From: Gilvimarinus polysaccharolyticus
Lineage (GTDB): Bacteria > Pseudomonadota > Gammaproteobacteria > Pseudomonadales > Cellvibrionaceae
Assembly: GCF_001187555.1 (NCBI RefSeq)
Contig: NZ_LFIJ01000001.1
Location: forward strand, 646,169-710,168
Length of the DNA stretch: 64,000 bases
Reading direction: 5' to 3'
Below are positions 23,675 through 64,000 of this stretch, in pieces. The position numbers and the translations under genes were made by a program. Below the pieces are notes generated by a model. That model saw nothing but the letters and a program-made list of their open reading frames with translations. It did not search any database and was not told where the DNA came from. Numbering within the stretch: position 1 is the first letter of the stretch; every line of letters starts with the position of its first letter.

Positions 23675-23782
23675 GATCGCTCGCCAATGCCGATCTTAGT
23701 GGGCCGCATCGTCACGCCAGCATTGTTCTTAAGTTGGATGCTGGCGGTACCAGGAGCGGTAACGGCAATATAACCAACTATT

Positions 23783-24077
23783 AGCCCATACACCGTTGTT
23801 CAGGGGGAAACCCTTGAACAACGTGGGCTTAAAACCTGTAAGTAACAATATATTAAACAACAATTTCAATGGGTTAGCCGACACTTGCGCTTGGTTCTGA
23901 AAAAGCTTACATTGCCTTTCTAATAAAATTCTGTCGCACTTTCCCCAGACAAGGAGCTGTCAAAATATGTCTATTTCCCTTTTTTCAATGCCTTCTATGT
24001 CTATCCTCATCCAATCTCTACGGGGGATAGGGTGCCGGGGTAAAGTGCGACTTAGTCGTATGAATTAGCTGTTAGCC
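23783..24077 (+). repeat. Structured ~290-bp repeat heading cassette cluster 1
   Basis: Copy 1 of a repeat found again at 60682-60966. It starts with hairpin A, CGTTGTTCA-GGG...CCC-TTGAACAACG (23794-23823), extended by AGCCCA/TGGGCT. A variable AT-rich middle follows, then hairpin B, whose arms GTCGCACTTT (23933) and AAAGTGCGAC (24042-24051) enclose a further CTATCC/GGGATAG stem. It ends TGAATTAGCTGTTA at the first base of the cassettes. The other copy has CGTTACTCA/TTGAGTAACG in hairpin A, a compensatory change. The whole non-genic stretch 23675-24113 holds only this. Confidence 0.8.
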
Positions 24078-26561: not shown

Positions 26562-27017
26562 ATGAAGCACATTCTAATATTAATCGGTATCTTATTTTCC
26601 GCACTGGCTTATTCCTCAATGCCACTTGAGGTTTCACTGGAGGAGCTAGTGGAAAATTCTGACCACTTATTGGTCGGTCATGTTGTTGGTGTTGATATGA
26701 TTGACAGTAAAGGAGAGGAAATTACGAATCTAAGTGCTAGAACAGGCCCAGGCGGTAAGAATTTAATACGGCTTATCATCAAAGTCGATGAGGTTGTTGT
26801 ATCAAGTGTGGAGACGGTACCGGATACCCTGAAAGTACCTCTTGATCCATTTATGCATTACAGTCTAGGCCAAATAAAAGAAGCGCACAGCATTGAAGGT
26901 GAAAAAACTCTATTGCTTTTAAAAGGAGCCAACTTCCAGCCTCCATTTGCAGGTATATTTCGGCGAAATCTGTCAGAGAGACAAAAAATTATCGAGCTAA
27001 TAAAATCTAATAAATAA
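26562..27017 (+). CDS. Exported protein of unknown function
   Basis: 151 residues, signal peptide at the N terminus (MKHILILIGILFSALAYS) and a beta-rich mature part with EELVENSDHLLVGHVVGVDM and a C-terminal EKTLLLLKGANF. I do not recognise the family. The opening 'signal, then VENSDHLLVGHV' plan resembles small secreted proteins often annotated as hypothetical. A GGAGGG ribosome-binding site precedes the ATG. It is a single-gene cassette starting 14 bases after the R' GTT. Confidence 0.65.
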   Translation: MKHILILIGILFSALAYSSMPLEVSLEELVENSDHLLVGHVVGVDMIDSKGEEITNLSARTGPGGKNLIRLIIKVDEVVVSSVETVPDTLKVPLDPFMHYSLGQIKEAHSIEGEKTLLLLKGANFQPPFAGIFRRNLSERQKIIELIKSNK

Positions 27018-27101
27018 AATCATGCGGACTTGGTAAAGCTGTCATCTTTTTTTTCCAAAAAATCCGCCAACTTCATCAAGCCGGTGTTTGAGGCGTTAGG
27101 C
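27013..27101 (+). other. Weak attC-like site C
   Basis: R' GTTAGGC (27095-27101) is a perfect GTTRRRY box. A stem GCGGActTGG can pair with CCAA...TCCGC. The R'' side (AAATAAAATC) matches the cassette start GTTATAT only poorly, so this is the weakest internal site. Confidence 0.5.
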
Positions 27102-27109
27102 AATTAGTC

Positions 27110-27580
27110 ATGGACATCGAATTTAAATCAATAGACTTAGGTGAAGCCTTAGCGTTATGTGTAAAGTTTCGAAGAGATACTCACAAAATTAGCTACGGAA
27201 ACCTCGCGACATATAACGAAGAGGAAGTTGTAAATTGGTTTCATCGAAACAAAGCAGAGAATGATCAGGGTTTTAAGCATATTTTCGTTAATGGAAAAAT
27301 TGCCGGTCAACTTGAGTTTAGATCTCCAATTAAAGAAGACGAGGTTACGTTCGGGTACATATATCTTATTTATTTGGCGGGGATGTTTCGGAATAAAGGG
27401 GTTGGTAAGTTGGCGCAGGAATATATGTTCGACCAATTTAAGGTGGACGGTTGTAGTGAGGCGAGACTTAGGTACATTCCTGGGAATGTCGTGGCTGAAC
27501 CTTTCTATTTATACACTGGCTGGGAAAAGTCTGGGGAGGTAGGTCCGCGTGGTCAACTATTGGTGCGGAAACTTGCCTAA
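27110..27580 (+). CDS. GNAT family N-acetyltransferase
   Basis: 156 residues in the acetyl-CoA-dependent GNAT fold. Motif A appears as YLIYLAGMFRNKGVGKLAQE (the R/QxxGxG/A acetyl-CoA loop is RNKGVG), and motif B ends with PFYLYTGWEKSGE. The substrate cannot be told; cassette-borne GNATs include antibiotic- and toxin-acetylating enzymes. It is a textbook cassette: 8 bases after R' GTTAGGC, and its stop codon overlaps R'' GCCTAAC. Confidence 0.85.
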   Translation: MDIEFKSIDLGEALALCVKFRRDTHKISYGNLATYNEEEVVNWFHRNKAENDQGFKHIFVNGKIAGQLEFRSPIKEDEVTFGYIYLIYLAGMFRNKGVGKLAQEYMFDQFKVDGCSEARLRYIPGNVVAEPFYLYTGWEKSGEVGPRGQLLVRKLA

Positions 27581-27651
27581 CAATCGCAGTCTGTCGGAAT
27601 GCCTTTCCGCTCCTTCGTCACTACAAGGCGTCCGCACTGCGGGTGTTAGGC
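27575..27651 (+). other. attC-like recombination site D
   Basis: 77 bases. R'' GCCTAAC (27575-27581) is the exact complement of both R' GTTAGGC (27645-27651) and the start of its own cassette (27095). Inner boxes GCAGTctgTCGGA and TCCGcACTGC pair with unpaired bases on one side, as in attC sites. Confidence 0.88.
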
Positions 27652-29014: not shown

Positions 29015-29070
29015 GATGCTTAAAACGCTCTCCGCAATATTTGCGGGTGAGTTTAACGTTAGTTACTACT

Positions 29071-29550
29071 ATGATCAGAGCACTTTTATTTTTAGTATTA
29101 ATAATATTGGCTTCTTGTGCAGAGGAAACCGAGCACGTAAGAGCAAGTAAATTACTTTTTAATAGTGATGACAAGAACGATCACGCAGAAGGGTTTGCTA
29201 TTCTACACTCTGAATATGAAAAAGGTTCTGCCTATTCTGCAGGTAAAATTGGTTGGGCATACCAAAAAGGTTTAAGTGTAGACGCCGATCTAGATAAAGC
29301 TTTAGAGCTTTATGATTTTGCTGCTCGTAGAGGTATGACGTATTGGCAGTATATGCTAGCTCATGCGTATGAAATGGGCTATCTAGGCTTGGAGAAAAGT
29401 GATGAGCAGCGGGATTATTGGCTCAGCTACAAGCCAAAAGTACATATTGATATCTATGAGTGTTGGGTTGAATATTATTATTCAAAAGGCTTTTATCCGG
29501 AAAATTCTGATCTAGAAATTCTTTACTATGAAAAGTGTAAAAATACTTAA
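29071..29550 (+). CDS. Sel1-repeat lipoprotein
   Basis: 159 residues from ATG 29071, which begins a lipoprotein signal (MIRALLFLVLIILASC). The open frame begins ten codons earlier, but those residues are not signal-like. Sel1/TPR-like helical repeats are visible: KIGWAYQKGLSVDADLDKAL and MLAHAYEMGYLGLEKSDEQ. Such proteins act in protein-protein contacts. The gene begins directly after GTTAGTTACTACT, close to a possible cassette boundary, and has no clear ribosome-binding site. Confidence 0.7.
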   Translation: MIRALLFLVLIILASCAEETEHVRASKLLFNSDDKNDHAEGFAILHSEYEKGSAYSAGKIGWAYQKGLSVDADLDKALELYDFAARRGMTYWQYMLAHAYEMGYLGLEKSDEQRDYWLSYKPKVHIDIYECWVEYYYSKGFYPENSDLEILYYEKCKNT

Positions 29551-34108: not shown

Positions 34109-34263
34109 AAACACTTCCTAAGTTGCGGCTGCAAGTTCGATAATGGTTATTTAATAGCCTTGATGCCAACTAATCAATAGCGGGGGTATCACCAGCAGAA
34201 TCCTCTTACCCCTATTGGGTAATTGACAAACCTCGGCCTGCACCGTAAATTGCCGCCACGATA

Positions 34264-34412
34264 ACAGGTGCCTACTGCTAGCTTTTAACGTTAAGAGTCA
34301 GTCGAGTAGGTTAAACGGGAAGTCCGGTAATCCGGCGCTGCCCCCGCAACGGTGATCAGTGGTAAGTCGCGCAAGCGCCTCTGCTGTAAGCCCGATACCG
34401 GCCTGGATCGAA
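34264..34412 (+). promoter_or_regulatory. Cobalamin riboswitch
   Basis: Conserved segments in order: ACAGGTGCC; TTAAACGGGAAGTCCGGT; GCTGCCCCCGCAACGGTGA; and AAGCCCGATACCGGCCTG, the B12-box part. These match the adenosylcobalamin-type aptamer. It stands about 110 bases before btuB, so it probably turns off btuB, and perhaps the following operon, when B12 is plentiful. The rest of 34115-34522 is leader and promoter. Confidence 0.95.
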
Positions 34413-34522
34413 CCGTGATGGAGCGGAGGGCTACCATCTGGCAATACGATCTCTCACGCTTAGCGTGCCGCGTTGCTATTCCTCCCTCGATCCCAAGCCA
34501 ATATCGACTTAGGGGTTGAACC

Positions 34523-40953: not shown

Positions 40954-41514
40954 GGTTTATCGTAGATTTTTGTGGAGCAGTTAATCTGACAGGCTCATAT
41001 TTTACGGGATAGATTTTAACTGGCTAGTGAACCATATGTATTGAAAGCGCATAGGCAGAAGCCAGAAAGGTAGTATGCGAAACTGGGCTCCGCTAACGCG
41101 GACTTTATTTATATGCTCGTATCGCCGAGCGTGGCGAGTGACTTTTCTTTGTTTGGCCAAAGCAAAGTAACCAAAAGGCAGCTCCTGCGCTCCATGCGCT
41201 CGCGGCATTAGTGCATCCGTGCACGTCAAAGGCCACCCCGGCATCTCAGCCCTTCGGGTGCCCTCGCTCCGGCCGATTTTAGAAGGCCGCATCGACAGGC
41301 CGTCCATGGCCTGACGATGCTTGCGCAAATGTCCTATTTGCTTACCCCCTAAAATAGGCCTACGTTCGGCTGGTTGCAGGGGGCCTAAAGACGACACTTC
41401 GTAGCTGGATGTGAACGTTTTAATAATGGTAGATTGCCATCGCCATTTTGTGCTGTGTATAGCAACGATATAATAAACAGTGACACTGATTTTTACACGG
41501 ACCTACTAAGAACC
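40953..41514 (+). repeat. ~550-bp intergenic repeat, copy R1
   Basis: Fills the 598-base gap between cobU and cobT. Left end AGGTTTATCGTAGATTTTTG matches the R2 left end (46952), and the ACCTACTAAGAACC right end resembles the TCTACGAAGAACC right end of R2 and R3, in inverted relation to the left end. Inner module: terminator-like CCGCtaacGCGG (41090-41101) then a T-rich run, the stretch TCGCCGAGCGTGGCGAGTGA, and a ~150-base block ending CACTTCGTAGC. R1 has an extra ~55-base insert compared with R2. No gene. Confidence 0.85.
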
Positions 41515-46951: not shown

Positions 46952-47490
46952 AGGTTTTTCTTAGAGTTTTGTGGAGCTATATTCTAGTTTCTACATGCCG
47001 AACCGTAATCTGGCAGTTTGAAACAAATAATTAAATTTGAAAATTAATCCGCAAATAAAGACTGTATAGAGCTACCGCTACCGCGGATTTTTTGTTTGCT
47101 CGTGTCGCCGAGCGTGGCGAGTGACTTTTCTTTGCGTGGCCAAAGCAAAGTAACCAAAAGAAAGGCCACCCCGGCGTCTGGCCCTACGGGTTCCCTCACT
47201 CCGGCCGATTTTAGGGGGCCGTATCGACATGCCGTCCATGGCCTGACGATACTTGCGTGAGCGTCCTGCTCACTTACCCCCTAAAATAGGCCTCCGTTCG
47301 GCTCAGTCGCAGGGGACCCAAAAGCGGTACTTCGTAGCAACACTGGCAGCGTTCATTGCTTGGCTGACAAGGTTTTAAAGTCTAAAAAAACTACAATAAA
47401 AACATGCGTCTCGCGAATAGTATATGTTCGTGTAGATTTCGCGGTAACGCCTTATTTGCACTAGGTTTCCATAGGAATCTACGAAGAACC
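46952..47490 (+). repeat. ~550-bp intergenic repeat, copy R2
   Basis: 36 bases after btuF. Left end AGGTTTTTCTTAGAGTTTTG, right end AATCTACGAAGAACC. Terminator-like CCGCtaccGCGG (47075-47086) followed by TTTTTT, then the shared TCGCCGAGCGTGGCGAGTGA and CCCCCTAAAATAGGCCT blocks. Lacks the ~55-base insert of R1. The remaining gap to lpxH (47491-47536) shows nothing else. Confidence 0.85.
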
Positions 47491-59498: not shown

Positions 59499-59880
59499 AC
59501 ACCGCTAACGCGGACTTTTTTATAAGCTCGCATCGCCGAGCGTGGCGAGTGACTTTTCTTTGTTTGGCCAAAGCAAAGTAACCAAAAGAAAGGCCACCCC
59601 GGCACCTCAGCCCTAGCGGGTCTCCTCGCTCCAGCCGATTTTAGAGGGCCGCATCGACAGGGCGTCCATGCCCTGACGATGCTTGCGCAAATGTCCTATT
59701 TGCTTACCCCCTAAAATAGGCTTCCGCTCGGCTGGTTGCAGGGGACTTAAAGACGGCACTTTGCCGCGGGTTATTAATGGCGTTGTCAAAAATTCAATGC
59801 TATATCGTCACCTTATGCTGGGCGAAGCAGTGATATAGTGATAATTATATTGGGTTTTCACACAAATCTACGAAGATCCA
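59499..59880 (+). repeat. ~550-bp intergenic repeat, copy R3 (left end missing)
   Basis: Starts two bases after tatD with the terminator-like CCGCtaacGCGG (59502-59513) and a T run, then the shared TCGCCGAGCGTGGCGAGTGA block and CCCCCTAAAATAGGCTT, to a right end CAAATCTACGAAGATCC. Lacks the first ~120 bases of R1/R2. Covers most of the gap between tatD and the dUTPase; no gene. Confidence 0.83.
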
Positions 59881-60634: not shown

Positions 60635-60681
60635 CTGTTGTGAATCTGAAAGCCCGCAGTCAAACGATTGACGTTCTATCC

Positions 60682-60966
60682 GTTACTCAGGGGAAACCCT
60701 TGAGTAACGTGGGCTAATAAATGTTGGCGAGATAATATATTTCTAAATAATTCAATGGCTTGAGCAGGGCTTGCGCGGTGAGATAAAAAAGATTAGATTA
60801 AGCCCTCAATTAAAGTTAGTCGCACTTTCCCCAGACAAGGAACTGTCAAAACATGTCTAATTCCCTTTTGTTTTCAACAATCTCCATGTCTATCCTCATC
60901 CAATCTCTACCGGGGATAGGGTGCCGGGGCAAAGTGCGACTGAGTCGCATGAATTAGCTGTTATTT
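60682..60966 (+). repeat. Structured ~290-bp repeat heading cassette cluster 2
   Basis: Copy 2 of the repeat at 23783-24077. Hairpin A is CGTTACTCA-GGG...CCC-TTGAGTAACG (60682-60710); GTT in copy 1 has become ACT with a matching change on the other arm. Hairpin B is again GTCGCACTTTCCCC with GGGGcAAAGTGCGAC, inner stem TATCC/GGATA, ending TGAATTAGCTGTTA at 60963. The middle is alignable only in patches (AATATATT, TTCAATGG). It fills most of 60547-60960, after R4. Confidence 0.8.
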
Positions 60967-61363
60967 GCCAGATAAAACGCGGTTGGTAAACTAAGCTTAG
61001 CACAAGATTTTAATAGTGCTGTATATAATAACAGCATAAGTGTGCTAATCAACATTAGGAAAAAATATTGGAAATTGAATTGACAGCCTATTACTCTGTT
61101 TTAGACCTTAAGACTAAGTGCCTGCCGCTGTGCAAGTCCGTGGTTTGCATCAGAGGACAGGCACTTAGTCTTAAGGTAAAGAAAGAGTCATCAATACTCC
61201 TTTCATTCCGCGTTTTCTCCAGTTCCGTTCACGGATTAATGCAGCTTCTTCGTGACCTCAGAAGCGCTTTATTTTCCGTGCCCGCAAATAACAAGGCCAA
61301 GCATTGCGACAACTTTTTCGTTACGGCTTCGCCTTCACAAAAAAGCTGCGCATGTTGGCAGCG
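60960..61363 (+). other. Cassette without a clear gene, with a long palindrome
   Basis: About 400 bases between GTTATTTGC and attC-like site F. It holds a perfect 20-bp inverted repeat: 61105-61124 pairs with 61158-61177, loop 33 bases, arm beginning ACCTTAAGACTAAG. The palindrome looks like another REP-type element. A 99-codon frame over it is most likely chance. It may be a promoter or regulatory cassette. Confidence 0.6.
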
Positions 61364-61369
61364 TTAGGC
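61284..61369 (+). other. attC-like recombination site F
   Basis: R'' GCAAATAAC (61284-61292) is the exact 9-base complement of its cassette start (60960-60968). Inner CCAAGCATTGCG pairs with GCGCATGTTGG leaving two single unpaired bases, the extrahelical-base pattern of attC bottom strands. R' GTTAGGC at 61363-61369. Confidence 0.87.
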
Positions 61370-61387
61370 TCCCCACAAGGATGAATC

Positions 61388-63163
61388 GTGAAAATTGAAA
61401 ATATTATAATTAAGAATTGGAGATCGATAAAAGATCAAGAACTCCAAGCCCAAGATTTGATGGTGATAATTGGACAAAATAATCATGGCAAATCAAACCT
61501 TTTATCATCGGTACTATTCTTCTTCGGCGAGATAAAACACCAAGACCTTGATTTCTATCACGGCTCGACAGAATTGTTTGTAGAACTCCAGTTCGGAGGG
61601 CTAGATGACAGCGACAAGATAACCTTTAAAAAATACTTAACTTCTGAGGATAAGATTGTAGTCCGAAAATCTGCATTCTTAGGAGGTAGCTTTGAGTATC
61701 GGGGTTATATTGAAAACCCTGATGAGGAATGGCTTCAAGAAGAAAATGCATCTGCATACACAAAAAGAGAGTTGGCTAGCAGCCTGCCATTTCATCCGTT
61801 TCTTCCTGATTCAGGCAGAATCACAAAGCAAAATATTGTTGACGCACAAGCCTCTTATATTGAACAAAACAGAGAAGAAATTGAGTTTAGCTTTGAGCTT
61901 GAAACCACCAACTTTTTGGGGCTTAAATCTGTTGCTAAAGGTATTTTTGGCGAGGTCTACTTTATTCCAGCCGTCAAAGAAGCTTCCGACGATTTTACGT
62001 CAAAAGACTCCAGCGTTTTTGGGAAAATGTATTCCGATGTCGTAGAGTTAATGTCAGAGAAAAATAATGACTGGAAAGAAACGAAGGAAAAACTCGGAAA
62101 GCTGTTCTCGACTCTTAATAAAAATGATGATGATGGCAATGAGAACGAAGACCGCCCCCAGCAATTGATTGATTTTGAAGAGGAGCTAACCAATGAGCTA
62201 GTTTCTTGGGGTGCAGAAATAGATATCGAAGTTAGTCCACCAGATATCGAGAGCGTATTTAAAGCAAACACACAGGTTTGGGTTAATGATGGTGTAAGAA
62301 CCGATATAAAACGAAAGGGGCATGGCTTACAAAGAGCATTAACTGTTGCACTAATTCAAGTAGTAGCAAAAAGGTCAATGGCTGCCGCGGAAGACGAAGA
62401 CCCCGAAAATGCTGGAAACCGTAAGGTGTCAAATTCTAGATACTTTATTTTTGAAGAACCAGAGCTTTATCTTCACCCTCAAGCTCAGAGGTCTCTTTTT
62501 GACTCTTTCGTTAGTTTATCAGAATCGGGTAGCCAAGTTATTCTGTGCACACATTCAAGCGGTCTGATTGATGTAGAGAGATATAAATCAATATATATCG
62601 CTACCAAGGAAAATAATTCGGACGAGACCAAGGTTAAGCAATGCACTGAGGATTTGTTTGAAGGTGATTCAAAGAAAGATTTCAACTTATCTTATTGGAT
62701 CAACCCTGATAGAGGCGAGCTGTTTTTTGCAAGTAAAGTAGTATTATTGGAAGGGGCCACGGAGAAAACGGTACTTCCTTTGCTAGCCAAGGAATTGGGT
62801 GTATTCAAATACGAATACACTCTGATAGGCTGTGGTTCGAAAGATAATATTCCGCTATACGTCAAGCTCTTGAATAAATTTTTGATTCCTTATGTAGCTG
62901 TTTATGACCAAGATCATCAGGCACATAAAGGCGAAGATGCCATTGCCTCAGCCGATATTTCTACACAAAAAATTGAAGACGAGATAGACAATAATGTTGG
63001 CACCTCAATTATATTAATTAACGATATTGAAGAAGAGCTTGGGTTGCCAAATGGAAGCAACAGTAAACCTTTTGTGGCGCTAAATCATATAAACACTGAA
63101 GGATTTACTATTAGCGAACCCATGATTTCAAAGATTCGAGATATCTATGATTCCCAAGCCTAA
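61388..63163 (+). CDS. OLD-family ATP-dependent endonuclease
   Basis: 591 residues, GTG start after AAGGAT. N-terminal ABC/SMC-like ATPase split by a coiled-coil insertion: Walker A GQNNHGKSNLLSSV near residue 28, signature GHGLQRALTVAL, Walker B YFIFEEPELYLHPQAQR, His switch LCTHSSGLID. C-terminal TOPRIM nuclease with VVLLEGATEKTVLPLLAKEL and YVAVYDQDHQ. The Class 1/2 split cannot be set by eye. OLD proteins and GajA of Gabija defend against phage; no GajB-like UvrD helicase follows here. It is a single-gene cassette: the frame begins 25 bases after R' and its stop lies within R'' GCCTAAC. Confidence 0.92.
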   Translation: MKIENIIIKNWRSIKDQELQAQDLMVIIGQNNHGKSNLLSSVLFFFGEIKHQDLDFYHGSTELFVELQFGGLDDSDKITFKKYLTSEDKIVVRKSAFLGGSFEYRGYIENPDEEWLQEENASAYTKRELASSLPFHPFLPDSGRITKQNIVDAQASYIEQNREEIEFSFELETTNFLGLKSVAKGIFGEVYFIPAVKEASDDFTSKDSSVFGKMYSDVVELMSEKNNDWKETKEKLGKLFSTLNKNDDDGNENEDRPQQLIDFEEELTNELVSWGAEIDIEVSPPDIESVFKANTQVWVNDGVRTDIKRKGHGLQRALTVALIQVVAKRSMAAAEDEDPENAGNRKVSNSRYFIFEEPELYLHPQAQRSLFDSFVSLSESGSQVILCTHSSGLIDVERYKSIYIATKENNSDETKVKQCTEDLFEGDSKKDFNLSYWINPDRGELFFASKVVLLEGATEKTVLPLLAKELGVFKYEYTLIGCGSKDNIPLYVKLLNKFLIPYVAVYDQDHQAHKGEDAIASADISTQKIEDEIDNNVGTSIILINDIEEELGLPNGSNSKPFVALNHINTEGFTISEPMISKIRDIYDSQA

Positions 63164-63229
63164 CAAGGCGCTGCTGCCGGACAAATTTTCCGCTGCGCTC
63201 CAAATTTTCCGCAGAGCGCGGCGTTAAAT
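63158..63229 (+). other. attC-like recombination site G
   Basis: 72 bases: R'' GCCTAAC (63158-63164), matching the cassette start GTTAGGC (61363); inner CGCtgCTgcCGG pairs with CCGcAGaGCG; R' GTTAAAT (63223-63229). The stop of the OLD gene lies within R''. Confidence 0.9.
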
Positions 63230-63241
63230 TTCAAGGATAGA

Positions 63242-63532
63242 ATGGATACTATTTTTCTAGCAGAAAGATCAATTTGGTTTCTAATGCCATTGTTGTTGGT
63301 GCTAACTTCCAATATTTTCACGAGAGGAGCTCCCTGGGTTCCAAAGAAAAGGCTGTACATCGGAGCAATTGTTTTAGGCTTAATAAGTGTTGTGCTTGGC
63401 CCACAATGCATGTGTGTGGATTTGAAGGATGCCATAATCGGCACACTATTATTTTCTGCTGTATTCAATATCATAGCATTGGTTATTGCATTAACAGTAT
63501 TTAGAATGAATTCGAGTGCAAGTAGAATTTAA
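63242..63532 (+). CDS. Small three-span membrane protein of unknown function
   Basis: 96 residues with three hydrophobic segments (about 12-25, 38-53, 64-88), a CMC pair between the second and third (GPQCMCVD), and a GGAT ribosome-binding site. It occupies one cassette; its stop overlaps R'' ATTTAAC. No family recognised. It could be an accessory of the OLD nuclease, but cassette borders between the two make independent acquisition as likely. Confidence 0.65.
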   Translation: MDTIFLAERSIWFLMPLLLVLTSNIFTRGAPWVPKKRLYIGAIVLGLISVVLGPQCMCVDLKDAIIGTLLFSAVFNIIALVIALTVFRMNSSASRI

Positions 63533-63617
63533 CAAGCTGCTTAAACATCGTTCCGGCCGAAAAAATAACGGCCTCCACTGGACTCGCCATTGCTCGCCGT
63601 TTAGAAAGGCGTTGAGG
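63527..63617 (+). other. attC-like site H, ending at the IS
   Basis: R'' ATTTAAC (63527-63533), complement of its cassette start GTTAAAT. A GGCCG...CGGCC hairpin is at the centre; AAACATCG-like and CGCCGTTTAG arms flank it. The R' position reads GTTGAGG (63611-63617), where the insertion sequence begins, so its last bases probably belong to the IS. Confidence 0.65.
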
Positions 63618-64000
63618 CTGTAGAAAAACTCCAAAAATTAGGAGGACTTTGATAAAATAAGGCATCGTAAATGGAGCTTCCGTTATGCCAAACTTCAAAA
63701 AATATAATTACAACCAAGATGCCATGGTGGTGATTAACTTCGAAGAGAAAATCCAGCCAGGAACCTTTGAATTTACCCTCCATAATCTGATCGATAATCA
63801 CATTGATCTTTCCGAGTTCTATAAAAACTACAGTAACGATGCTGGTGGGCGCTCTGCATACGACCCTGCCATACTGCTTAAAATTATTCTTTTTGCCTAC
63901 GCGAAGGGAATCACCTCTAGCCGTGAAATTCAGTGGCAGTGTGAACACAATATAATATTTAAAGCCTTGTCTTGTGATGCGGTACCTCACTTTACCAGTA
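63614..64000 (+). mobile_element. IS1182-like insertion sequence, left part
   Basis: Starts with GAGGCTGTAGAAAAACTCC, which recalls the inverted-repeat end of IS1182-family elements, 71 bases before the transposase ATG. The right end lies beyond the window. The end position is inferred. Confidence 0.65.
63685..64000 (+). CDS. IS1182-family transposase, partial
   Basis: The frame opens MPNFKKYNYNQDAMVV and runs open to the window edge (105 codons). Hallmarks of the family's N-terminal region: PGTFEFTLHNLIDNHIDLS, YDPAILLKIILFAYAKGITS and SREIQWQCEHNIIFKALS. The catalytic DDE part lies outside. An opposing frame on the minus strand over the same bases is a shadow. Confidence 0.88.
   Translation, partial: MPNFKKYNYNQDAMVVINFEEKIQPGTFEFTLHNLIDNHIDLSEFYKNYSNDAGGRSAYDPAILLKIILFAYAKGITSSREIQWQCEHNIIFKALSCDAVPHFTS

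Follow-up and report, generated by a model that had tools for sequence, protein, structure and literature searches.

The window analysed here is a stretch of 64,000 nucleotides from Gilvimarinus polysaccharolyticus (positions 646169-710168 of contig C1), whose genome of 3.74 Mb is held in 7 contigs. Towards its right end lies a row of gene cassettes on the forward strand, cassette 1 (60960-61362), cassette 2 (61363-63222) and cassette 3 (63223-63613), each a unit bounded by GTT points in which the R'' box of the attC site pairs with the start of the cassette itself. The preliminary description had reported exact complementarity between start and R'' box in all three cassettes, over 9, 7 and 7 bases; the pairing was confirmed and its lengths were measured as 9, 8 and 8 bases (starts 60960, 61363 and 63223). 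Beyond the GTT/AAC anchors 16 further bases match, for which simple arithmetic gives about 4^-16 for fixed placements, in agreement with the earlier judgement that chance pairing is very unlikely. Pattern scans for attC were noisy and were superseded by a covariance model, R1, built from 27 attC sites of the genome. It scored attC 1 (61286-61369, forward strand) at 65.8 bits (E 2.5e-14) and attC 2 (63158-63229, forward) at 55.5 bits (E 1.5e-11), scores that are partly circular because both sites belong to the training set. The third site, attC 3 (63527-63617, forward), was left out of the model and scored 21.4 bits (E 0.024); its R' box (63611-63617) is partly replaced by insertion sequence, because an IS1182-type element begins directly after its GTT. 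Among the 27 sites the R''/R' and L''/L' pairs had 96 cells with changes on both sides, compared with 37.0 after shuffling, and 0 of 500 shuffles reached this number.

The contents of the cassettes differ. Cassette 2 encodes an OLD-family ATPase with a TOPRIM domain (61388-63163, forward; PF13175 1.5e-40, PF20469 6.8e-15, PADLOC Old 6.7e-72), which is probably a phage defence nuclease. Cassette 3 holds a small ORF (63242-63532) without a Pfam match. Cassette 1, also without a Pfam match, contains a perfect 20-bp stem and a strong hairpin formed by an inverted repeat (61105-61177), the fold of 61000-61290 having a z of -8.0, and a LexA-like box was spotted by eye at 61019-61034; it is possibly a small gene or RNA under SOS control. 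The row continues past the window to about C1:716527 and has ten attC matches at E <= 1, including two weak ones; it is interrupted at an attC by the IS1182-type element, which runs on the forward strand from 63614 through the window end at 64000 to about C1:711552 (L009:4782-6552; NF033551 259 bits, under the cut-off of 270). There are six matches to this element in the genome (3 full, 3 partial), all within cassette arrays, and each of the 3 full copies occupies the GTT of an attC and is flanked by GTT on either side, a placement by which the element is predicted to target attC.

A first cluster lies about 30 kb away, with attC sites at 27005-27101 (38.1 bits) and 27575-27651 (25.9 bits). 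Both clusters lie on the forward strand with other genes in the gap, just as had been described. A Sel1-type cassette gene is common to the two window arrays (29041-29550 and L009:6838-7377; 81% identical over 504 nt), and a cobalamin riboswitch was seen at 34249-34419.

Ahead of cassette 1 stands an attI-like leader (60680-60959, forward) that ends at the cassette's GTT (60960-60962), homology to other copies stopping at GTTA. Its left end is marked by a hairpin (60682-60708); in the alignment of 15 of the 20 leaders this hairpin has 18 cells with changes on both sides, where shuffles gave 8.1 (0 of 500). All-against-all alignments of 20 leaders, together with alignment A2, showed that the core at 60818-60959 (forward) is common to the most distant copies. 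A 15-pair inverted repeat around this core was rejected as a structure and kept as conserved sequence only, with 0 cells changed on both sides against 0.8 in shuffles, and Rfam at gathering thresholds gave no match at the leader. A 34-aa ORF (60853-60957, forward) has its stop two bases 5' of the GTT and is kept to that stop in 7 of the 8 copies in this genome and in 10 of 20 type-I copies. The first cluster is headed by a leader of its own (23804-24070, forward), which is 78% identical to that of the second and ends at the GTT of 24071-24073.

When the 273 bases 5' of cassette 1 were used as query, eight full or near-full copies and two fragments were found in the genome. The copies lie at C1:706858 (the window array), C1:669972 (the first cluster, window 23804-24073), C2:1475245 (array A), C2:1582068 (array B), C2:21623 (array C), C1:1064556 (array D), C2:928786 (array E) and C2:498741. 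All eight are alike through GAATTAGCT and the GTTA that follows and diverge afterwards, except that the window array, A and B have a common first cassette. The copy at C2:498741, 88% identical to the window leader, has an intact integron integrase gene on one side (TIGR02249 411 bits, cut-off 265) and the first cassette of that gene's array on the other, and is thus attI by position; a LexA-like box was seen by eye 5' of this intI. The genome has two intI over the cut-off, both on C2, and the second carries one internal TGA. An intI-less copy of the second gene's leader (C2:981996-982273) likewise ends at GTTA. On sequence evidence, the window array is an integron cassette array without an integrase gene and with its own attI. 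With about ten attC and no intI nearby it counts by definition as a CALIN (at least two attC, no intI nearby); of the features of a complete integron it has the attI ahead of the first cassette, recognised by homology to the intI-linked attI and by its end at GTT, and lacks the adjacent intI.

About ten such attI-led rows are scattered over the genome. At least one attC stands on the same strand behind each of the eight leaders, the nearest at 0.3 to 1 kb, or at 2.9 kb in the case of the first cluster. In the genome scan 150 of 1010 first-look candidates were scored, so that the attC counts are lower bounds. On this basis there are 49 matches: 37 follow the eight leaders (34 of them in arrays that lack intI), 4 follow the second intI, 3 follow the intI-less copy of its leader, and 5 lie elsewhere, with no leader found for them in the genome. 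Hence 44 of the 49 stand behind attI leaders, 37 of the 44 without intI. A partial leader was seen directly after the last attC match of array D (C1:1074070-1074198), as if two arrays stood in tandem. A dispersed intergenic repeat was also observed in the window (59638-59751, 41270-41415, 47202-47337 and 23693-23718), with relatives upstream of many leaders; an Rfam TwoAYGGAY match (47196-47299, minus strand) overlaps one of its copies.

Several cassettes recur between arrays. Cassette 1 occurs in four arrays of the genome and leads three of them: first in the window array, A and B, it is internal in D (99.3% identical to the window array and 99.8% to B). The cassette that heads C has an internal place in B (99.7% over 579 nt), with a GTT start in both arrays and, in C, a far end that falls in a run of N. 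One cassette is common to C, D and a G. agarilyticus array (98%; far end GTTA, near end N-masked in C), another to A and a G. agarilyticus array (95%; ending at GTTA, starting 16 bases 5' of GTT), and one intI-linked and one intI-less array of G. agarilyticus have a cassette in common at 99.3%, from GTT to GTT. Wherever the end can be read outside N runs, these near-identical cassettes end at GTT or a few to 16 bases off. It had been proposed that the cassettes behave as units between GTT points, with breakpoints unrelated to GTT in sister genomes named beforehand as the outcome that would speak against it; near-identical copies with GTT ends are present in other arrays and in a sister species, the breakpoints lie at or near GTT, and the proposal stands.

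The leaders extend through the genus. The exact 21-mer of the leader end was found in 9 stretches of a collection of 84,980 species, which may leave out the window's own genome; all are Gilvimarinus, six in G. agarilyticus JEA5 (G002) and one each in G. xylanilyticus (G003), G. chinensis (G007) and G. sp. 2_MG-2023 (G006). The 21-mer was not found in viral contigs, nor was the leader found on plasmids by distant blastn. Leaders of G000-G004, G006 and G007, 22 in number, went into a profile, R2, which gave matches in every one of the 8 Gilvimarinus genomes (14, 7, 10, 7, 7, 6, 6 and 5 times in G000 to G007, the first being the present genome; 62 in total), and outside the genus it gave a weak match in 1 of 136 other genomes of the family. 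Of the 62 matches 51 reach the crossover (model position 148 or 149) and the others are degenerate. Scanning 30 leader loci (29 from Gilvimarinus) with R1 in flanks of up to 1.5 kb gave 38 attC hits, 37 of them downstream on the leader strand, at least one attC being found within 1.5 kb downstream in 22 of the 30 loci. Integrases over the cut-off number 2, 1, 1, 1, 0, 0, 3 and 2 in G000 to G007.

Beyond the genus, the region next to intI was taken from each of 9 other genera and used as query in its own genome, and dispersed copies of the own attI were found in 4 of them, with 15 hits besides the query in G028, 6 in G030 and 2 each in G022 and G018. Two of the 15 hits in G028 are pieces of one copy, and 14 have their end no more than six bases from the crossover GTT. 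In G011, G019 and G033 the search gave the query only, and in G027 and G031 the hits stop at query or contig ends. Among 20 loci from these genera, 2 are intI-linked, and tblastn found intI only in those two (upstream sequence mostly about 1 kb, 55 bases in one); 17 of the other 18 have more than 1.5 kb downstream, and in 13 of the 17 the leader is followed by attC. The attC hits at the loci of other genera, 35 in number, are all downstream on the leader strand. Three draft contigs of G028 (C17, C18 and C20) stop at the attI crossover or no more than about 50 bases from it, as is expected if the first cassette varies or repeats.

We interpret these observations as a distributed integron, in which many attI-led arrays would be served by one integrase acting in trans, and we give this reading a probability of about three in four. 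It draws on the homology of the leaders to the intI-linked attI, the GTT breakpoints, the attC behind eight leaders and the cassettes common to several arrays. One SOS-regulated IntI, encoded on contig C2, would insert and remove cassettes at the scattered arrays by binding and using the intI-less leaders; a free cassette would join at the leader-end GTT or at an attC, and a cassette released from one array could enter another. Expression of the first cassette may be aided by the leader with its 34-aa ORF; in class 1 attI an ORF has a similar role. Some findings count against the interpretation. The leader ORF is shortened in half of the type-I copies, and a promoter scan of the leader gave 3 matches against 1.3 expected, which is weak and near chance. 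The intI-linked array of this genome has only the IS in common with other arrays and no cassette. G. agarilyticus retains leader types whose intI it is without, and since G004 and G005 have no intI over the cut-off, service in trans cannot hold there now.

The preliminary description had taken the two clusters as a spread of cassettes to secondary sites. An intact intI elsewhere in the genome and the five single attC matches without a leader would suit insertion at ordinary attG-like sites, an attG-type target being neither attI nor attC (PMC12444791, in the text available). This account has to be given up for the window clusters, which both begin at leaders homologous to the attI beside the intact intI on another contig; with six other arrays they start at a 230-273-bp homologue of it, and such insertion is now very improbable. 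More serious is the idea of fossil integrons, which holds that a complete integron once stood at each locus, that intI was lost, and that the leaders are remains ahead of frozen arrays. G004, in one contig, is without intI over the cut-off and has 7 leader matches, the draft G005 has 6 matches and an intI fragment (C159:4108-4305) less than 1 kb from a leader, and at some loci an array is retained in the same position in different species. On the other hand, no trace of intI was found upstream of 17 of 18 intI-less leaders, up to 4 kb being examined (2.1 kb for the window leader), and the sole exception is a 46% identical intI about 2 kb off in G007. The common left end of the intI-less copies near the same hairpin, and cassettes 99% alike between arrays, which point to recent traffic, also make a fossil origin unlikely.

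Arrays and leaders could also have been copied without IntI, by homologous recombination via shared leaders, repeats or IS copies. In its favour, the leader end and cassette 1 make up a single stretch that the window array, A and B share at 99.4-99.8% identity (from -60 to +406), and the dispersed repeat lies less than 700 nt upstream of 10 of 20 leaders in a constant direction, with a probe made partly from one such locus. Against this, shared cassettes stop at GTT and change their place between arrays (one heads C and is internal in B, another heads the window array and is internal in D), and recombination of this kind is a rather improbable explanation of the whole.

Sites were also compared between species. 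In all 7 relatives the place behind the same dUTPase-like gene is taken by other genes, with neither leader nor cassettes there. By their flanks, site A is orthologous to that of a G. agarilyticus leader, and one site is common to G002, G003 and G004. G. agarilyticus carries a diverged leader at sites B and D, and its leader at site E belongs to the second intI's type. Site C measures 209 bp in G. agarilyticus against 4.3 kb, and site B 0.75-0.85 kb in G001 and G004 against 13 kb; at these sites in the three genomes no empty site for leader and cassettes alone was found, the left breakpoints not lying at the leader edge. A tree of 18 of the 20 leaders, from which the partial G2e and G3c were dropped, rejects grouping by site (p 3e-5 and p 0.0085) and the pairing of the two intI-linked leaders (p 0.0028). 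Leaders within one genome are more alike than their counterparts at orthologous sites, and the intI leader of G. agarilyticus pairs with another leader of that genome (99/99). We read this pattern as homogenisation of leaders within genomes, in a tree with several long branches where the intI leader of G. polysaccharolyticus is joined to the leaders of A, B, C and the window array with weak support (55/72). A broader proposal, which we hold as tentative and at somewhat less than even odds, is that attI multiplies as a discrete unit from the left hairpin to the crossover GTT, founds arrays at new loci and is kept similar to the intI-linked attI, that one integrase serves many arrays, and that many CALINs of marine gammaproteobacteria would be such daughter arrays.

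As far as the accessible text goes, a single attI near the integrase is given as typical of integrons, with attI poorly described and undetected outside class 1 (PMC9024848), and off-target insertion, intI loss and rearrangement have been proposed for the origin of integrase-less arrays (PMC8618304). The window cluster would be classed as a CALIN and differs in having its own attI. In the part of the report available, the Shewanella prophage M16-3 is described with an integron and a CALIN each with attI, and so has an intI-less array starting at a copy of the intI-linked attI (PMC9892861); that is one case in a prophage, whereas Gilvimarinus has 5-14 leader matches per genome in 8 genomes, besides the copies in 4 further genera. 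The CALINs of Xanthomonas likewise lack intI, recur at particular loci of the chromosome and belong to a genus that has a resident integron, and attI ahead of the arrays is not mentioned in the text of that paper at hand (PMC12444791), unlike the leaders here. Delta-attI-type cassettes also carry attI sequence outside its usual place, usable by IntI1 in that case, but there, by the passages seen, pieces of attI replace the attC of a cassette, while in Gilvimarinus whole leaders head separate arrays (PMC12901181). For an attI-led array without intI there is thus one published precedent, the Shewanella prophage; in the open-licence literature no report of many dispersed attI in one genome was found, and no paper on Gilvimarinus and integrons.

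If IntI uses the leaders in trans, several cassettes would be first in an array simultaneously. Repeats that end at GTT ahead of attC arrays also offer a route to attI sites that are still to be recognised. The scattered integrase-less rows with their docking sites suggest that one integrase may serve many storage sites and not one.
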